Positions 3,951 through 35,835 of a stretch of DNA of 54,220 nt are shown piece after piece (position 1 is the first letter of the stretch; each line of letters starts with the position of its first letter). The DNA is from Anaerolineae bacterium. Lineage in GTDB: Bacteria; Chloroflexota; Anaerolineae; B4-G1; SLSP01. The position numbers were made by a program, and so were the translations under genes. The notes under the pieces are model-generated. The model was not told the DNA's origin, made no database searches, and saw nothing but the letters and a program-made list of their open reading frames with translations. The stretch covers positions 1 through 54,220 of the forward strand of contig JALXBP010000085.1 of the NCBI GenBank assembly GCA_026991395.1. The letters are read 5' to 3'.

Positions 3951-4639
3951 TGCCCCAGCGCCCGCCCCTCGCCTGGCTGGACGGCGAAGGCTGGATCGTC
4001 CTCATCGGCGGCGGCGATCCGGGACGCGGCGACCTGGACGAGCCCTTCGGCCACATCCTCAACCGCATCAATCTCGACCGCCCCGTCATCGTCCTCATGG
4101 CCGAGGGCAGCGAGAGCCGGGCTACCGAGGTTCTGGACGCCTACACGGCACTCGGCGGGCCGGGCGGGTATGCGATGGCGTTGCAGAGCGTGGAAGACGA
4201 ACGGCTGGCCCGTCCCGACTTTCTCGACCTCATCTCCGAAGCAGGACTGCTCCACCTCGGCGGGGAGGATGCCCTGCGCCTGACCCGGGCACTGCGCCGC
4301 AGCCCCGCCCTGGGACGCATCGTCGCCGCCTTTGCCACCCTGCAGGGGCTTACGCTCGTCGGCTGCGCAGGCGGGGCGCGCGCTCTGGGCGCGTGGGCCG
4401 GCGATCCCGCGCGTCCCGGCCCCGCCCATCACGGCCTCGACTTCGTCCACAACACCCTCATCGTCCCCCACTTCACGCAGACGGAAGCCCATCCGGAACT
4501 GCGCACCCTGCTCCGGCACCACCCGCACGCCCTGGGACTGGGCCTGCCTGACCGCACCGCCTTGGCCCTCGGCCCGCGCGGCGATGTCGAACGGTGGGGC
4601 GAAGGCGAGATCACCGCCGTGGTCAAGATGCAAGGCTAA
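3950..4639 (+). CDS. Peptidase S51 / cyanophycinase-like protein with Cys at the nucleophile position
   Basis: This 229-aa protein has the S51 layout: a glycine-rich strand LIGGGDPG (18-25), GGEDALRL (104-111), a nucleophile-elbow-like GCAGGA (138-143), and a C-terminal block VPHFTQTEAH then GLGLPDRTAL. In cyanophycinase and dipeptidase E the elbow is T-S-A-G-A; here the serine position is C139. The protein may be a thiol variant or a non-hydrolytic relative. It starts on the stop codon of the M20 hydrolase, suggesting they handle the same peptide or amide substrate in sequence. A partly paired stem (4645-4673) lies before the next gene. Confidence 0.8.
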   Translation: MPQRPPLAWLDGEGWIVLIGGGDPGRGDLDEPFGHILNRINLDRPVIVLMAEGSESRATEVLDAYTALGGPGGYAMALQSVEDERLARPDFLDLISEAGLLHLGGEDALRLTRALRRSPALGRIVAAFATLQGLTLVGCAGGARALGAWAGDPARPGPAHHGLDFVHNTLIVPHFTQTEAHPELRTLLRHHPHALGLGLPDRTALALGPRGDVERWGEGEITAVVKMQG

Positions 4640-9425: not shown

Positions 9426-12400
9426 ATGAGCGATGAGATCAAGACCGACATTGAGCAGCCGGAGGCCGCCGGTTCAGACGAAGCCCCGGTTAGCCTGGAG
9501 GCGCTGGAAGCAGCCCCCAAAGAGAGCAAGCTGGCCTCCCTGCAAGGGATGCTGGCAGGACGAGGATGGCTCGGCGCACTCCTCGTAGCGCTGCTGATCA
9601 TCGCCTTCCTCTTCCTGCCGCCGGTCTCGCTGGGCACGCGGCTCCTCGGAGCCGGCCATTACACGACGCTCGACGCCCAAACACCGCGCATCACCCACCC
9701 CGACGGCCTGGCCGTCATCGTCGGAGAGCAGGAAGGGGAAAAGCTGCGCGTCAAATTAGGCTCCGTCCCCAGGGCCGACTTCGAGGAGGCTGGCGAGACC
9801 CTGCCCGATGAGGCGAAGGCCGCCCAACAAGCCTTGCCCGATAACTTGGTGCCCAAAAGCCCCTTCTTCACCATCGACGTCCGTGGCAAGAGCCTCGGCC
9901 CGGCGACGCTCGTCCTCACCATTCCCAACGAGGCCGAACCGTGGGAGACCCTGGACGTTTACGGCTGGGACGGCACGAAGTGGTCGTGGCTGCCCGGCAC
10001 GCTCGACCGCGAAACGGAGACGCTCGTCGTGGCCGTAGAGCAGCTCCCCAAAGCGGTGATGGTCATGCAGACGAAAGCCGTTCCCCAGGTCATCGCCGCC
10101 GAGGGTGAAGACCTGCCTCCCGCCGAATTCGGCACCTCCATCTCCCAGGTCGATCTGGTAGGGATGAAGATCGGGACCTTGGGCAACCTCAACGGCGACC
10201 CCTCCCTCCTGCCGCCGGGCAGCGTGAGCACGAATCCCGTCCTCGCCCCGACGGTGCGCAACTGGATTCCCGGCCATCCGCCCAACTTCGGCCTCGTGGA
10301 GGATATGCTGGGCATCGCCGCCGACCGCGCCGCGCACATCACGGCACTGGTCGATCTGGCGAAGAACGGCGATTATCCCGGCCTGGTGCTCGATTACCGC
10401 GCCCTCTTGCCGGAGGATCGCGAAGCCTACGCCGCCTTCGTCGCCGACCTGGCCAACGCCCTCCACGCCGAGGGGAAATGGCTGGCCGTCACGGTGGAAG
10501 CACCGCAGATTCAGGCCGACGGTACCTGGAACGACGGAGCCTACGACCTCTACGCCATCGGCAAGGCCGCCGACCAGGTGCAGATGGTCATGCCGCTCGA
10601 CCCGCAAGCCTACACGCCCGGCGGCCAGGTCGATCAGATGCTCGTCTGGGCCACCTCGAAGGTCAACCGCGCGAAGCTCTTCCCCATCTTCTCCACGCTG
10701 AGCACCGACGGCAAGACGACCTACACGCTCGACGACGTCTTCCGGCCACTGGCGGAGATCGCCGCCGTAACGCCGATGAGCGAGAGCGTCGCGCCGGGGA
10801 CCAAGCTGGCCTTCCAGGTCGCGTTAGATGCAGCCTTGGACAGCGACGCCACGACCGGAGCCGAACGCATCACCTACGGCGATGTCGCCTACTGGCTCGG
10901 AACGCCGGAGTGGCTCCGCTACCGCCTCGACCTCACAGCGCGCTACCACCTGGGCGGCGTCGTCCTGCGCGACCTTTTTGCCGACGGGAACTTCCCCGGC
11001 ATCGCGCAGGCGCTGCAGAACTACCTGGCCGCCACACCGGCCACACAGGCCACCCCGCCGCAGGTAAGCTGGTCGGTCAGCGGGCCGGACGGCAAGACCG
11101 AGCAGATCGAACAGCCGATCTCCCAGGAGCCTTTCGCCTGGACGGCACCGGAGGTAACCGGCACCTACCACATCGCCGCCTCCATCTTGGGCCTCGACAA
11201 GGGCAGCATCGACGTGCAGGTCGCCCAACCCGTCCCGCAATCCAATGCCGAAGAAGAGGAACCGGCCATCGGCGGCGCCTCGGCGGCGGACGAGACGACA
11301 CCCGAGATGAAGGCCGCCTTCGTCGCCGACGTTACCGTGCCCGACAACACCCACTACGAGAAGGGCGAGCAGTTCACCAAGACCTGGCGGCTGAAGAATG
11401 TCGGCAGCGAACCGTGGCCCGAAAATACCGTCGCCCGCTACGTTGGCGGCGAGCGGATGGCCTCGGTGGACGAGGTGAAGGTCGGCGCGGTCCAGCCCGG
11501 CGAGACGGTGGACGTCAGCGTCGATATGGCCGCCCCCTCGCAGGATGGCGTCTTCAAGAGCCGATGGGCGCTCTACGTCGGCGACAAGATGATCCCCGGC
11601 AGCGACCTCTGGGTCGTCATCCAGGCGGGGACGCCGCAACAGGCAGCCAATCCCGCACCGGCAACCGGCGGCGGTCCCTTCGAGCTGGGCGGGCATATCC
11701 TCCAGGGCTTCCGCTACGCCGACAAGATGCACTACGCCGGGATGACTTGGGTCAAGGTGCAGGTGCGCTACCCCGGCGATGCAAACGGCATCATCGCCGC
11801 AGCGCACGCCAACGGCTTCAAGATTCAGATCAGCGCCTTAGGCGAGGCAGGAATGGTGACGCGCGGCGACTTCAAGGAGACGGTCAGCAACTGGGTTGCC
11901 GGTATCGCCGCCGCTGGAGCCGACGCCATCGAGGTGTGGAACGAGCCGAACCTGCCGCGCGAGTGGCAGAGCGGCTACATCAGTCCGCAAGCCTACACCG
12001 ACCTCCTCTGCAGCGCCTACGCGGCGATCAAGAGAGCGAATCCCAACACGTGGGTCATCAGCGCCGCGCCCGCCCCGACCGGCTACTTCGGCGGCTGTCA
12101 TCCGCACGGCTGCGATGATGTCCCCTGGCTCCAGGGGATGTACAACGCCGGAGCCGCCAACTGCTTCGACTTCATCGGCGCGCACCACAACTCCGGAGCC
12201 ACGCCTCCGGCAGCCACCAGCGGCCACCCCGCCGACCCCGGCGACCATCACCACTCCTGGTACTTCCTGCCGCAGACGCAGATCTACTACAACATCTTCA
12301 ACGGCACCAAGCAACTTTTCTACACCGAATTAGGCTACGTCTCGCCGGAGGGCTTCGGCTGGATTCCCGACACCTTCGCCTGGGGCGCGAACACGACCGT

Positions 12401-14593: not shown

Positions 14594-15049
14594 TCAGCGG
14601 ATGATGGGATCGTTGGGGACGGCGCGCTCCTCGATGATGCGGTAGCTGTTGGTGATCTCCGCCACCTGGCGCAGCATCGCCGAGGCGGAGCAGTAGCGCG
14701 TCTCGGAAAGCTCGATCGCCCGCTCCACCGCCCTGGGGTCGATCCCCTCGCCGTAGACGATGTACTCGATGTGGATTTTGGTGTAGACCTTCGGGTGCGT
14801 GGGGGCGCGTTCGGCCTCCACCTTCACCTGGAAGCCGGTAACCTTCTGCCGTTTCTTCGCCAGGATGGAGATCACGTCCATCCCCGTGCAGCCGCCCAGT
14901 CCCATCAGGAAAAGCTCCATCGGTGCGGGGCCGGTGTTCGTGCCGAAGGGCGGCCTGTGGGAATCGAGGACGATGGCCGGGCCGTCGTTCGCCTCGGCGA
15001 CGAGGCGCAGGCCGGGACCGACCCAGGTAACCTGTGCTTTGGATGTCAT
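14594..15049 (-). CDS. OsmC family peroxiredoxin-like protein
   Basis: This 151-aa protein has the two OsmC/Ohr cysteines, C54 in GGCTGMD and C120 in RYCSAS. These reduce organic hydroperoxides in the family. It is the last gene of a five-gene minus-strand thiol operon and ends at a strong terminator. AAGGAG lies 10 nt before the ATG, just after the cupin gene. Cytoplasmic. It is closer to the YhfA/OsmC branch than to Ohr by eye, but this is uncertain. Confidence 0.92.
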   Translation of the reverse strand: MTSKAQVTWVGPGLRLVAEANDGPAIVLDSHRPPFGTNTGPAPMELFLMGLGGCTGMDVISILAKKRQKVTGFQVKVEAERAPTHPKVYTKIHIEYIVYGEGIDPRAVERAIELSETRYCSASAMLRQVAEITNSYRIIEERAVPNDPIIR

Positions 15050-28003: not shown

Positions 28004-28486
28004 TCAATCTTCCACGAACCCTACAGGCTCTTCCCAAAGCAGCCCATCGAACAGCCCCCTCCCGGCCAAGAGAAAGACTATCACGCCATACCCCAATCCC
28101 AACGCCGCGTATCCGCCTATGACGGCAAGCTCGTGCTGTTTGGAGAGCAGCGCTATGACGATCCCGCTCACAAAGCAAACCCCTTCCGACGCCAGAATCA
28201 AGACGCCCCGCCCTCCGGGCCATCCTACCTTGTCTTGTTCAGCCAATGATCTCCCCAACGAACGGGACCTGATCGTTCCCCTTAGGAGCTTGAGCAGCCC
28301 CACAAAGTCCGCCAAGCCCCACCAGAGGCTCAATCCCAAAGCCAATGCCCCCGGCAGCATAAAGAAGCCCACCAAGGCAGCTACCCACGATTGCGGCACC
28401 AGCAGGCGAGACAAAGCGACACCCACGATGCTTCCCCCTATCGTTAGTGCCAGCAACGTAACGCCGGTCAGAACAAAGCCGGACAT
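28004..28486 (-). CDS. Small membrane protein, four helices, unknown
   Basis: This 160-aa protein has four hydrophobic segments, near residues 6-28, 35-58, 97-115 and 122-143, with a basic cytoplasmic loop (TIRSRSLGRSLAEQDK) between the second and third. I recognise no family. AAGGGG lies before ATG 28486. It is the leftmost gene in the island between the PL8 operon and the DUF4190 genes. Confidence 0.65.
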   Translation of the reverse strand: MSGFVLTGVTLLALTIGGSIVGVALSRLLVPQSWVAALVGFFMLPGALALGLSLWWGLADFVGLLKLLRGTIRSRSLGRSLAEQDKVGWPGGRGVLILASEGVCFVSGIVIALLSKQHELAVIGGYAALGLGYGVIVFLLAGRGLFDGLLWEEPVGFVED

Positions 28487-28603
28487 AAATCGACCCCTTG
28501 TTTAGTGCGTGCCTACCCGCGATGATGGTGCTCGCCTCTCGCCCGTTGCTTTTCGTCCTCCGAACAGTTCGCCCTATTGCCCCTGTGGTTTGCTCCTTCC
28601 ATC

Positions 28604-29413
28604 TTACTGAGAGCTCGGCAAGGGCAATAGGGACTCGTAAGTGGGCCACATACTCCAAGAGTGACAGGAAGGTCTTTCCTGTTCTCCCGGTAGATAAGGA
28701 CGAAGCGTCACATGAAAAAACTTTCCCGAGTCAGTACGAAATATACCTTCAAAAACTGCCTCTTCAGCCCGCAAGGGATATTCTACGAATTCGCACTCAT
28801 GAAGCGCTCGTTCAGGAGAAAATCCATACGGCCAGAGTGGTATATCCTCCGGATTGTTCGGATATTCCTCTGGAGCAAGTGCTGTTACAACTACAGAAAC
28901 CTTTTGAGGATGGTAAGGTTGTTGCATCTCTGCGATATCGGCAGTAAAGCCCGTAAGAATGCGGAAAAAGACCGGGTCGGGCTGACGCAAGAACCAACGG
29001 ATAGAGCCGCAGAAATTGCGGTGCCGTAAACGCATTACTGCCAATATGGTTGGACCCATACCATAACGGCCAAGATTCCAGTCACTACAACTTTGATCGA
29101 TCCTCTCAGCCCGAGCAATATCGGTGACTAATTGATCAACGCGCTCCGAAGATGTTCTACTCTGACAGAACTTGGTTTCCCCATGGTTTTTACCATAGCA
29201 ACGTGTAATGACCAGCCCACTTTCATACAACACAATGTTCGGAACTTCCAATCCGACATGCCTCCAGAGGCCAGGGGAACCAGCAGATGGTTGACCATAT
29301 CCCATAACAAGAATAGCGCGCTCCTCACTCGGCTGAGAATCTGATGTACACATAGCACAAAGCAAGATAATCAGCATGTACATCGAATGTCGCCAAAACT
29401 TATGATTGCTCAT
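28604..29413 (-). CDS. Secreted or membrane-anchored protein of unknown function
   Basis: This 269-aa protein begins with a short hydrophobic signal (MYMLIILLCAMCTS). Its cysteine could be a lipobox, but the -3 to -1 residues fit poorly. The rest matches nothing I know; it is rich in Cys, Trp and Tyr and has a segment RAILVMGYGQPSAGSPGLWRH just after the signal. Base composition is visibly lower in GC than neighbours, with AT-rich codons, which suggests recent transfer. GGAG lies before ATG 29413. Confidence 0.6.
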   Translation of the reverse strand: MSNHKFWRHSMYMLIILLCAMCTSDSQPSEERAILVMGYGQPSAGSPGLWRHVGLEVPNIVLYESGLVITRCYGKNHGETKFCQSRTSSERVDQLVTDIARAERIDQSCSDWNLGRYGMGPTILAVMRLRHRNFCGSIRWFLRQPDPVFFRILTGFTADIAEMQQPYHPQKVSVVVTALAPEEYPNNPEDIPLWPYGFSPERALHECEFVEYPLRAEEAVFEGIFRTDSGKFFHVTLRPYLPGEQERPSCHSWSMWPTYESLLPLPSSQ

Positions 29414-29499: not shown

Positions 29500-29547
29500 T
29501 GCCAACAGGGTGGTGGATGGCGGAAGCCAAACGCTGTCCTGTTAAGT
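29500..29547 (-). repeat. Short attC-like folded site (downstream of the HEAT cassette gene)
   Basis: On the minus strand it starts with ACTTAAC (fits RYYYAAC) and ends GTTGGCA (near GTTRRRY). AACAGG pairs with CCTGTT and GGC with GCC. On the plus strand AACAGGGTGGTGGATG at 29504-29519 repeats, at 14 of 16 bases, the block at 30437-30452. At 48 nt it is short for an attC site. Confidence 0.4.
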
Positions 29548-29574
29548 CGAACGCGAGGAAGCGGTCGGCTTAAC
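29541..29574. repeat. 34-bp imperfect palindrome
   Basis: GTTAAGTCGAACGC and GCGGTCGGCTTAAC pair at 12 of 14 positions around a 6-nt loop. GCTTAAC recurs at 29676-29682, next to the stop of the neighbouring gene. It overlaps the attC-like site and may be part of the same recombination region. Confidence 0.45.
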
Positions 29575-29704
29575 GATTTGCTTCAGCCGCCCGCCGTGTT
29601 TGCAACGTGCCAATGTTTGAGAACAGCCTGGATTTGCAAATTCCGCGTCGCGTACCCATCGCCGAAGGCGGGGCGGCTTAACGCGGGATTTGGCAGCGCC
29701 ACTG

Positions 29705-30334
29705 CTACAACGCCATCGCCGCAGCAATGACCTTTCTCAACCGCTTCTCTTGGGATGGTCGCATATCTGCCATCCTCGACTGAATGATTTCTATGAATTG
29801 CTCCTTGCTCTCGCTATCTACGGCTCTCAATATCGCTTCCGCTCGCTGGGGCACATCTTTTGGACGACAATTCTTCAAATGTGCCAGTAACCACGGTAAC
29901 AGTTCAGCCCGATACGTTTCCTTTTGCCCTGCCACAACTGACAATGCCTTTATCCCGCGATCTACTGTTATCACACTGCCTTGTTCTATCGCCGCCTTGA
30001 TTTCATCACGGTATCCGTACAAAATATCTGCCTTGAGCCCCGCTATCGTTGCCAGCGCGCTCATTCCGCCCCACACCAGACGATTGTTCTTGCTCTTCAA
30101 CAAACCCAGAAATTCTTCCACATACTCCGCAATCAGTTCCGGCGCAATGTAGCCAATCTCATACAACACCTTGATGCAATCGCTTTGTATCTTGCGGTCT
30201 CGATTCTTTAGATTGGCTACCAGTTCTTGAATATCGCTCCGCGCCTGGCTCGCTGCCAGTTCTTGGGCAAGTTCCTGATTGGGAACATCGTCTCGACGCC
30301 CAAGCGATGTAGCCAACCGACTGATAACCGACAT
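29705..30334 (-). CDS. HEAT-like repeat protein, putative cassette gene
   Basis: This 209-aa protein is all alpha. Repeated helices such as IQSDCIKVLYEIGYIAPELI and LVWGGMSALATIAGLKADIL fit an ARM/HEAT scaffold of about four repeats. No catalytic site is visible. Codons are less GC-rich than in the HEAT gene at 21580-22848, and the two do not look like close copies. AAGGAGG precedes ATG 30334. It is flanked by attC-like sites at 30433-30516 and 29500-29547. Confidence 0.8.
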   Translation of the reverse strand: MSVISRLATSLGRRDDVPNQELAQELAASQARSDIQELVANLKNRDRKIQSDCIKVLYEIGYIAPELIAEYVEEFLGLLKSKNNRLVWGGMSALATIAGLKADILYGYRDEIKAAIEQGSVITVDRGIKALSVVAGQKETYRAELLPWLLAHLKNCRPKDVPQRAEAILRAVDSESKEQFIEIIQSRMADMRPSQEKRLRKVIAAAMAL

Positions 30335-30432
30335 TTCGCTACCTCCTTCCCTGGCTACTGTGCGTTTATGGACGCGAATTCATGCACGCTTCTCCGCATT
30401 TGGCTTGCCAATCTTCTCGCGTTCTAATCGCA

Positions 30433-30516
30433 GCCTAACAGGGCGGCGGATGAGCGGCCTGCTGGGCGGCGAGCGCAGCGAGCCAAGCCCAATCAAATCC
30501 GTTCCATCCCTTGAAA
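30433..30516 (-). repeat. attC-like folded site upstream of the HEAT cassette gene
   Basis: On the minus strand the 84-nt element ends with GTTAGGC, a perfect GTTRRRY core. Its arms pair in blocks AGGG/CCCT, GGATG/CATCC, CGG/CCG and GGGC/GCCC around a 19-nt centre rich in GCTCGCTGCGCTCGCC, with bulges between, as in attC hairpins. The opposite core is degenerate (TTTCAAG instead of RYYYAAC). Confidence 0.45.
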
Positions 30517-30642
30517 CATCCTGGCCACACCGTCGCCGCGTATGCCCCCAACAAACAGAAATTCCTACGCTGCACCCCAAGTCTATCCTACACACAGAAA
30601 GCTGTCAAGAGCCATAGCCCCCCTTTGATCTACAACCTCACG

Positions 30643-30712: not shown

Positions 30713-31051
30713 ATGTCAGAGTTTAACTATGGTTCCGAGTCCACGAGCGGAGCGCCCGAAAACAACTCTCTCGCGCTCATCAGTCTGATCGCCAGCATCT
30801 TGGGGTTGACCTTGTTCCCCTTCCTCGGCTCCATCGCCGGGCTGATCCTCGGCTATATGGCCAAGAAGCAGATCGAGGAGAGCAACGGGACCGAAGGCGG
30901 CGAAGACCTGGCCAAGTGGGGCATCATCCTCGGCTGGGTAGGCATCGGTCTGGGTATCCTCGGTTGCTGCGCCTTCTTCGGCCTCTTCGGCGGCACGGCG
31001 ATGCTCAGCGGCATGGATTCCTTCGTCCTCCCCGCGCTCTTCGCCATCTGA
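30713..31051 (+). CDS. DUF4190-type small membrane protein
   Basis: This 112-aa protein has a polar head (1-18) and two hydrophobic segments (about 19-47 and 70-95). They are joined by GYMAKKQIEESNGTEGGEDLAKWG, the typical DUF4190 loop that links the helices. Its function is unknown. AAAGGAG precedes ATG 30713. It heads a group of three small membrane-protein genes. Confidence 0.85.
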   Translation: MSEFNYGSESTSGAPENNSLALISLIASILGLTLFPFLGSIAGLILGYMAKKQIEESNGTEGGEDLAKWGIILGWVGIGLGILGCCAFFGLFGGTAMLSGMDSFVLPALFAI

Positions 31052-31058
31052 AGCGACA

Positions 31059-31385
31059 ATGGGCACGAGCGAGCAACGCACGGCTCCGCCCACGAGCGGA
31101 AGCGCCGTCGTCGCCTTCATCCTCAGCCTGCTCGGTCTGTTGCAGGTGCTGCCTTTGCTGGGCACCATCGCCGGGCTGCTCCTCGGCTACAGTGCCCGCA
31201 GCGACATCCGCGCCAGCCACGGCAAGCTCGGCGGCGAAGGGCTTGCGCAGGCGGCCATCATCATCGGGTGGATCGGTGTGGCGCTCTACATCCTGAGCAT
31301 CTGTCTGGCCATCCTCGCCTTCGCCGGCCTCATCTCCCTGCCCATGGGGGTTGGCGCGTGCGCCCAACTCGGTAATCTGCAGTAA
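31059..31385 (+). CDS. Second DUF4190-type membrane protein
   Basis: This 108-aa protein is a paralogue of its neighbour: SALVAF-like first helix, the loop GYSARSDIRASHGKLGGEGL, and a second pair of hydrophobic stretches ending in SLPMGVGA. Only 7 nt separate it from the previous stop and its ribosome site is weak, so it is probably translated by coupling. Confidence 0.82.
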   Translation: MGTSEQRTAPPTSGSAVVAFILSLLGLLQVLPLLGTIAGLLLGYSARSDIRASHGKLGGEGLAQAAIIIGWIGVALYILSICLAILAFAGLISLPMGVGACAQLGNLQ

Positions 31386-34055: not shown

Positions 34056-34913
34056 CTACAGCTCGAAATCCTTCGTCGCGGCCCGAAGGGCGACCAACTG
34101 TCCGAGGTAATCGTAGAGACTGGTGAGCTTTTCGGCCACCTGCTGCGGCTTCTTGGCCAAATAGCCTTCCCAGAGCAGCATCATCACCGTGAGCGAGGGC
34201 GCGAAGCTGCCCAACGTCGTCGGAGAGTGAGAGGGGACGACGAGAGGAACGTCCGCCTCACGCACAGGGAAGATGCTGCCCGACTCGGAAACGACGATGC
34301 TCTTGACCCCGAGCCTCTTCGCTTCACGCACGACATAGCCGACATCGAGACTGGGGGTACCCAGCGCAACGCCGATCAACGCATCCCCCTCCTCCATCTT
34401 GCTCAACGCCTCCGACGCCTCCTCCATCGTGGGGCGGAAGGCAAAGCTCGGCAATCCAGCACCGTCGAAAGCCTCAGCGAGGAAGCGGGCCAGCGAGTAG
34501 CTGGTGTGCTCACCGGTAACCCACAGCCGCTTGGCCTCCGCGAGAATCTCCACCGCCTGCACCATACGCCCCATCTCCGTGGCGGCGAACTGATCGACGT
34601 TGAAGGAGGCCGCCTTGAAGACCGATGCCATAATGGCCTCGTCCGAGCCGCCCTCCGGCACGGTGTAGGTCGCCTTGATCTTCTGGCGGACGTAATCCTT
34701 GATCTCCAGCGAAAGCTCCCGGTAACCGGAATAGCCGAACTCCTGCGCAAAGCGCACCACGGTCGCCGGATCGACGCCGGTGCGACGGGAGACCCCGGCC
34801 ACGGTAAGGAAAGCGGCGTCCAGCGTGTTATTCAGCAGGAAATCGGCCAACTTGCGAAAGCCTGCCGTCAATTCGTCATAGCGCGCGTAGATGCGATCCT
34901 GAAACTTAGCCAT
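34056..34913 (-). CDS. RpiR/MurR-family transcription regulator with SIS domain
   Basis: This 285-aa protein has an N-terminal helix-turn-helix (VAGVSRRTGVDPATVVRFAQEFGYSG, about 41-66) and a C-terminal sugar-isomerase-like SIS domain (about 125-255; VTGEHTSYSLARFLAEAF, then IVVSESGSIFPVREAD). SIS domains sense phosphosugars. It is a paralogue of the gene just upstream and overlaps it by 8 nt. ATG 34913 with GAGG upstream is preferred. No sugar operon lies next to it. Confidence 0.92.
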   Translation of the reverse strand: MAKFQDRIYARYDELTAGFRKLADFLLNNTLDAAFLTVAGVSRRTGVDPATVVRFAQEFGYSGYRELSLEIKDYVRQKIKATYTVPEGGSDEAIMASVFKAASFNVDQFAATEMGRMVQAVEILAEAKRLWVTGEHTSYSLARFLAEAFDGAGLPSFAFRPTMEEASEALSKMEEGDALIGVALGTPSLDVGYVVREAKRLGVKSIVVSESGSIFPVREADVPLVVPSHSPTTLGSFAPSLTVMMLLWEGYLAKKPQQVAEKLTSLYDYLGQLVALRAATKDFEL

Positions 34914-35835
34914 TGTCCTCACCCTCCTGCTTCTTCAGACGCTCTTCCCAGATCTTCTGGGCCGAGGCGATCTCGTATTCACCCGTTTCCAGACGCTGCT
35001 TGAAGAGCCGCTCGAGCATCTCCTGCCTCCGCGCGTCCGCCGAGGCCACATCCACCTTGCGCTCCTTGCCCACGGCCTCCCAGAGGAGAGAAAGCGCGAC
35101 CATCTCCGTGCTAAAGTCGAAGAGGGCCACGGGACTGTCCGAGGGGACGTGAATGAGGATGTCCGTCTCTCGTGCAGCGAGGATGTTGTTCCTGCTGCTG
35201 ATGCAGATGGTCTTGACGCCCTTCTCCTTCGCCAAATGAAGCGCGTAGCCGACGTCCAACCCCGGCCCTTCCTGCACGATGGCGAGCATGACATCCCCCT
35301 CGCCCATCGCCAACAAGCTGCTGGCCGTACCGGCCATCGAGGGAGCCACGCAACGGGCCTCGTACCCCAGGCGGCCAAATCGCTTTGCCGCAAAAGCCGC
35401 CATATGGTAAGTGGCACCTTCGGCCACGGCCCACAGCCGCTTGGCCTCGACAATCGCGAAGACGGCCTCCGCCACCGCCGAAGCACTGGCAGCAAAGAAC
35501 CGCTGCACCTGCTCGATCTTGTACTCGACCAGTGCTTCCAGCATCTCGGCCATCCCCTCGGCCATCTGCGATCGCTCGTAAGCGCCCTTGACCTGATCGC
35601 GGACATAGGCCTTGATCTCGCGCGACAACTCGCGGTAGCCGCTGTACCCCAGCTCCTGCGAGAAGCGCACCACCGTTGCCGGATCGACCCCTACGTGCCG
35701 CGCAAGCTCGGTAGCCGTGAGGAAAGCGGCATCCACCGTCTTCTCCGTCAGAAAATCGGCCAACCGACGGAATCCGGGCGTGAGACGCTCATACTCCTTC
35801 CTGATCCGTTCCTTAAAATTGTTCTCCGTGTCCAT
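34906..35835 (-). CDS. RpiR/MurR-family transcription regulator with SIS domain, first of the pair
   Basis: This 309-aa protein has the same layout as its neighbour: a helix-turn-helix (LARHVGVDPATVVRFSQELG) and a SIS domain (GATYHMAAFAAKRF; ISSRNNILAARETD). The recognition-helix regions of the two are nearly identical, so they may bind the same operator or form mixed dimers. It also has a longer charged C-terminus (EEIRK-type, ending KKQEGEDNG). It heads the operon, with its own promoter at 35914-35941. Confidence 0.92.
   Translation of the reverse strand: MDTENNFKERIRKEYERLTPGFRRLADFLTEKTVDAAFLTATELARHVGVDPATVVRFSQELGYSGYRELSREIKAYVRDQVKGAYERSQMAEGMAEMLEALVEYKIEQVQRFFAASASAVAEAVFAIVEAKRLWAVAEGATYHMAAFAAKRFGRLGYEARCVAPSMAGTASSLLAMGEGDVMLAIVQEGPGLDVGYALHLAKEKGVKTICISSRNNILAARETDILIHVPSDSPVALFDFSTEMVALSLLWEAVGKERKVDVASADARRQEMLERLFKQRLETGEYEIASAQKIWEERLKKQEGEDNG

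Follow-up and report, generated by a model that had tools for sequence, protein, structure and literature searches.

Integrase-less cassette arrays are known as CALINs, clusters of attC sites lacking an integron-integrase (IntegronFinder, PMC9024848). They have been proposed to be degraded integrons, and draft genomes are known to overstate them (PMC9024848). We analyzed positions 1 to 54,220 of contig JALXBP010000085.1 from an Anaerolineae bacterium (GCA_026991395.1), a stretch of 54,220 nucleotides referred to here as the window (contig C85), and its cassette locus belongs, in decayed form, to an integrase-less cassette system; the repeated leader makes it a variant. Like CALINs, the arrays of this genome are bounded by attC sites, run in tandem orientation and lack intI; they differ from CALINs in beginning with a conserved promoter and attI-like leader, found at at least eight loci, and in that the window locus itself is without a scorable attC. 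Cassettes are also said to have entered genomes at attG sites (Loot et al., 2024, cited in PMC11023631). Such cassettes are likewise dispersed outside an integron platform, whereas those of the present genome stand behind a promoter leader, which attG insertion alone would not bring. A further likeness concerns the Delta-attI-type gene cassettes (PMC12901181), described in resistance cassettes of mobile integrons: there, attI-derived sequence forms part of mobilizable cassettes, whereas the leader found here lies upstream of the array and carries a promoter. Overall, we consider it very probable that the region (Table 1) is a fossil cassette locus with a leader promoter, cassettes, decayed attC sites and no integrase, one of at least eight leader-headed loci.

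An earlier note on this DNA had pointed to a 16-bp repeat as a possible pair of attC-like sites, and its description held on inspection. Block 1 (AACAGGGTGGTGGATG, 29504-29519) and block 2 (AACAGGGCGGCGGATG, 30437-30452) lie on the same strand and share 14 of 16 positions, both minus-strand ends read ...CCCTGTT, and block 2 continues as the GTTAGGC listed in Table 1. Imperfect folded arms are present at block 1, in the 34-nt hairpin next to it and at 30433-30509, and one small gene lies between the blocks in cassette orientation. Within the window the 16-mer alone is weak evidence, as shuffles yield about two matches at three mismatches; what decides the matter is the homology outside it. Positions 30413-30509 match C50:14865-14961 of the same genome (84% over 98 bp, E 1.7e-19), and 29526-29694 match C50:13928-14100 (78% over 175 bp, E 6e-32). 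The repeat family occupies about a dozen places on five contigs (C45, C50, C84, C102 and the window), between small genes. No match to the repeat was found in viral contigs, nor any Rfam match in the window.

Table 1. Features of the cassette locus in the window, and leader copies elsewhere.
Feature	Position	Strand	Basis or detail
Third gene, 160-aa membrane protein	28004..28486	-	attC precedes homologue in G006
Probable decayed R' junction GAGAGGC before next gene	28533..28539	-	DNA homology to G006
Second array gene, 269 aa, probable lipoprotein	28604..29413	-	Putative cassette, from position
Fused remnant of gene-less attC pair, contains block 1	29500..29547	-	Composite-unit comparison
Palindromic spacer between two attC, 34 nt	29541..29574	.	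GTTAAGT...GCTTAAC
Gene's own attC, decayed	29568..29697	-	R' GTTAAGC 29568-29574 intact; R'' GCCAAAT vs GCCCAAC
Cassette gene, helical-repeat (HEAT/ARM-like) protein, 209 aa	29705..30334	-	ORF, homologues, AlphaFold2
Decayed attC heading cassette, contains block 2	30433..30520	-	R' GTTAGGC 30433-30439 intact; R'' unrecognizable
Degenerate leader copy, 5' half: promoter and start of structured leader	30510..30612	-	Local alignment
-10 box TAGACT, 4/6 to TATAAT	30580..30585	-	Leader promoter
-35 box TTGACA, exact consensus	30603..30608	-	17-bp spacing to -10
Leader copies, promoter and conserved fold	L102:605-855; L103:7-218; C133:33233-33440; C84:39033-39148		

We then focused on the attC sites, which were scored with a covariance model built from 20 sites (a trimmed in-register set) of arrays beside intI in class relatives, none of them from the genome under study. 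The genome-wide search scored 150 of 4064 candidates, so that attC counts are lower bounds. Five intact sites were recovered in this genome, at C50:15064-15134 (40.4 bits), C102:46823-46949 (38.5 bits), C50:14884-14972 (34.0 bits), C50:13976-14100 (31.2 bits) and C84:50982-51070 (22.0 bits). All five lie at cassette boundaries on the same strand as the cassette genes, and additional C45 and C84 sites fit attC by a simpler pairing search. These homologues, which lie downstream of genes, have the canonical anatomy: R'' pairs with R' and L'' with L', and two bases of the 5' arm are extra-helical. The three C50 sites lie within 1.2 kb, and thus C50 holds at least two attC, the IntegronFinder 2 default for a CALIN, as judged with the custom model used instead of IntegronFinder; the window does not reach that number.

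The two sites singled out in the earlier note did not rise above background in an unfiltered covariance search, as the best window score was 8.2 bits and an unrelated place reached 10.2 bits. The attC assignment survives this failed score, since the model does recognize intact homologues on other contigs of the genome. The site heading the cassette is 84-88% identical to C50:14884-14972 and C84:50982-51070, and a third site, which the note had overlooked and which starts some 8 bp beyond the stop codon of the minus-strand gene, that is, downstream in the gene's own orientation, is 78-80% identical to C50:13976-14100 and to C45:20422-20547. It is the gene's own attC. Moreover, the block-1 site is attC-derived but not a single site: compared with the C50 composite at 14884-15023, its left part corresponds to the left half and its right part to the right end, with the middle deleted. 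The composite itself reads as tandem gene-less attC with palindromic spacers of 25-40 nt between them; its right half is the 34.0-bit site, and its left half was assigned as attC by reading the sequence. The 34-nt spacer of the window is homologous to a 40-nt spacer in the C45, C50 and C102 arrays. By alignment, R' boxes and part of L survive in the window, while R'' is lost, and the background scores are explained by the changed or lost R'' and by the deletion fusion at block 1. As judged from their sequence, the window attC are decayed and not functional-looking. The reading as a cassette without an integrase thus stands as regards origin, orientation and the missing integrase, but not as regards two scorable attC in the blocks.

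These data also bear on whether the repeats could be a palindromic REP/MITE-like family, unrelated to integrons and beside genes by chance. The units are nested palindromes with REP-like hairpin spacers, as such a family would have, but the copies are confined to cassette loci, where they mark the limits of cassettes and all face one way with respect to the genes, rather than being scattered between genes at large as the earlier note had asked of a REP-type repeat. In addition, attC within the copies score on a model built from other families, and the gene between the blocks is a cassette in two other genomes. This explanation is largely refuted and, in our view, highly improbable.

The cassette gene encodes an all-helical repeat protein (AlphaFold2 pLDDT 97.3) with armadillo/HEAT-type matches, and searches against Pfam and NCBIfam returned no family. 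A weak PADLOC match to OloA (E 1e-4) was discounted. Its 15 homologues are patchily distributed over Anaerolineae, Firmicutes, Spirochaetes, Bacteroidetes and one contig titled Thermoplasmata. On that last contig (L134), the homologue, 69% identical in the best segment, sits between attC in a longer array, flanked by a site at 1388-1460 upstream (44.4 bits) and one at 2142-2276 downstream (pairing search). The L134 array, titled as Thermoplasmata archaeon, is a typical cassette array (161-287, 1388-1460, 2142-2276 and 4008-4136), and points to an integron in an archaeon or else to misbinning of the contig; it resembles the archaeal integrons (PMC9668308) in that this Thermoplasmata MAG, so assigned by title only, holds the same cassette between attC. 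The second genome is G128, a class relative in which the first gene next to intI (locus L120) is a 45%-identical homologue, followed by an attC at 9507-9631 (pairing search) and by a second cassette with its own attC at 10131-10219, a site that belonged to the training set of the model. The chromosomal integrons of class relatives (for example G128/L120 and G361/L116) share the attC architecture of the window's genome and, in G128, the homologue as first cassette; they differ in having intI, and of the intI loci tested none yielded the leader. G128 is the only one of 28 class loci with a model-scoring attC beside the homologue, and the absence of an adjacent attC from the other 27 indicates, as a point against the cassette reading, that the gene also exists outside cassettes. 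Most genomes therefore have it as an ordinary gene and some as a cassette.

Farther along the array, the 269-aa second gene matches no known family. The third gene has a homologue in G006, a genome of another genus of the same family, directly behind an intact attC (L158:5544-5629, 34.8 bits), and the DNA homology between G006 and the window begins at the R' end of that attC, which corresponds to window position 28533. Such a start supports the view that the decayed array of the window is longer, or else that the two genomes share the end of an array, and the third gene is accordingly either a cassette or an array-end neighbor.

The earlier note had recognized the cassette but overlooked the promoter leader that heads the array. 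A complete leader spans about 150-220 bp and comprises a sigma70-type promoter, a conserved RNA fold and a 3' end at an attI-like G|TT. At least eight sites carry it in this genome, the window included: intact leaders are found on C45 (two), C50 and C133, and shorter ones on C84 (two) and C102. The window copy is without the 3' half and the attI-like junction, and an attC-type site is in their place. Local alignment of this copy to five others gave scores of 57-77, against a shuffle maximum of 48 (500 dinucleotide shuffles each), while its alignment to the G006 copy was not significant alone, and it reached only 11.9 bits on the covariance model R2. Wherever the promoter region is complete, the other copies have the same promoter geometry, with -10 boxes TATACT, TATATT, TATTAT and TATGCT. 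The leader starts sharply, about 10 bp upstream of the -35 box, and a complete one ends in ...AATTATAAG|TT, beyond which every copy differs. In the leader fold, 93.5% of cells are paired, with seven double-change cells (2/500 shuffles), in a small sample of six sequences among which the changes are mostly G-U-compatible single changes. An Rfam search with the C50 copy gave no match, and the leader, which stands between the cassette promoter and the attachment site, apparently forms a structured 5' RNA of a kind not described before. Outside this genome, two copies occur in G006, and none was found in the other 46 genomes of the order (0/46) or in viral contigs.

In seven leader copies the shared sequence breaks off at G|TT, and what follows differs from copy to copy, as expected of an attI with its crossover at G|TTRRRY. 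As no leader adjoins intI in the readable flanks, and none was found at the intI loci of intI-bearing relatives, the role of attI is argued from this junction pattern and from position, and we infer that the leader is attI plus Pc. No report of multiple or of orphan attI came up in a literature search with thin coverage of subscription journals. An alternative is that the leader is a mobile promoter/structured-RNA element in its own right, inserting upstream of cassettes, which would agree with the at least eight copies, the structured RNA, the sharp start and the lack of a neighboring intI. Divergence exactly at the integron crossover point, with different sequence after each copy, argues against such an element, which we regard as distinctly unlikely.

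As the earlier note had supposed, there is no integrase at the locus, and this extends to the whole assembly: a TIGR02249 profile search returned zero integron-integrases above cut-off, and the three partial matches are XerC/D-type proteins that skip the IntI-specific stretch 190-241. A search for intI remnants upstream of the leaders, using IntI proteins, gave solely Xer-like matches of the same genome. Leader and promoter are present and intI is absent from flanks that can be read, so that none of these loci shows a complete integron with intI, attI and Pc together. It could be argued that the organism itself has a complete integron, with intI and a primary attI in a gap or an unassembled contig, and that the loci are fragments split by the assembly. 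The assembly consists of 153 contigs and the C45 and C102 arrays stop at contig ends, so that an unassembled intI is possible; in addition, drafts exaggerate integrase-less arrays (PMC9024848), and 98 of 396 class genomes carry intI, two members of the same family (G014 and G020) among them. Nevertheless, estimated completeness is 100%, and the six leaders with readable upstream flanks adjoin not intI but ordinary chromosomal genes (gyrB, pnp, a xanthine-dehydrogenase-type gene, DUF4190, a response regulator and another), which makes them separate loci whatever the assembly. We hold a complete but unassembled integron to be rather unlikely. Within the family, attC sites occur in 9 of 24 genomes, and one member (G022) carries a truncated intI fragment (L099, G022:C226:1431-1796; model 188-305) on a small contig shared with an attC site (27 bits). 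In the window, two tandem DUF4190-like membrane protein genes (30713-31385) diverge from the leader, and two neighboring regulator genes, paralogs that look RpiR-like by eye, lie at 34056-35835 (DNA 74% identical over 181 bp).

Returning to the fossil cassette locus, we propose that IntI would have captured cassettes by attC recombination at G|TT, joining the GTT of the leader and the attC ends. The leader promoter, on the minus strand with its -35 box at 30603, would read into the 209-aa cassette, the second gene and possibly the third. After loss of intI, the sites would have decayed, furthest in the window, with the promoter kept. As R'' pairing is lost at the flanking sites, excision of the cassette is probably no longer efficient, and the cassette is probably still transcribed from the leader. 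Sister arrays carry defense- or nuclease-like cassettes (Abi_C/AbiJ, CHAT, PIN, VRR_NUC and NB-ARC/TPR), which would favor retained expression. Stretches rich in defense cassettes lie at C45:17697-22298, C84:50270-50965 and C50:11422-13862 (CHAT, PIN, CAAX-protease, Abi_C, NB-ARC/TPR).

More broadly, we read the loci as platforms of attI plus promoter that have no intI of their own and lie scattered among housekeeping genes; an integrase since lost, or missing from the assembly, probably filled them in trans. A tentative extension, which we judge somewhat unlikely, is that this lineage has a split integron, with many intI-less promoter-plus-attI platforms spread over the chromosome, a conserved structured leader RNA, a separate and often defense-type set of cassettes at each, and possibly one integrase acting in trans or integrases that come in from elsewhere. 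Integrase-less cassette arrays are common, yet usually dismissed as scraps; arrays each with their own promoter and attI-like junction would, if this is true, amount to distributed expression of captured genes, and multiple platforms would make platform spread and integrase action in trans testable.
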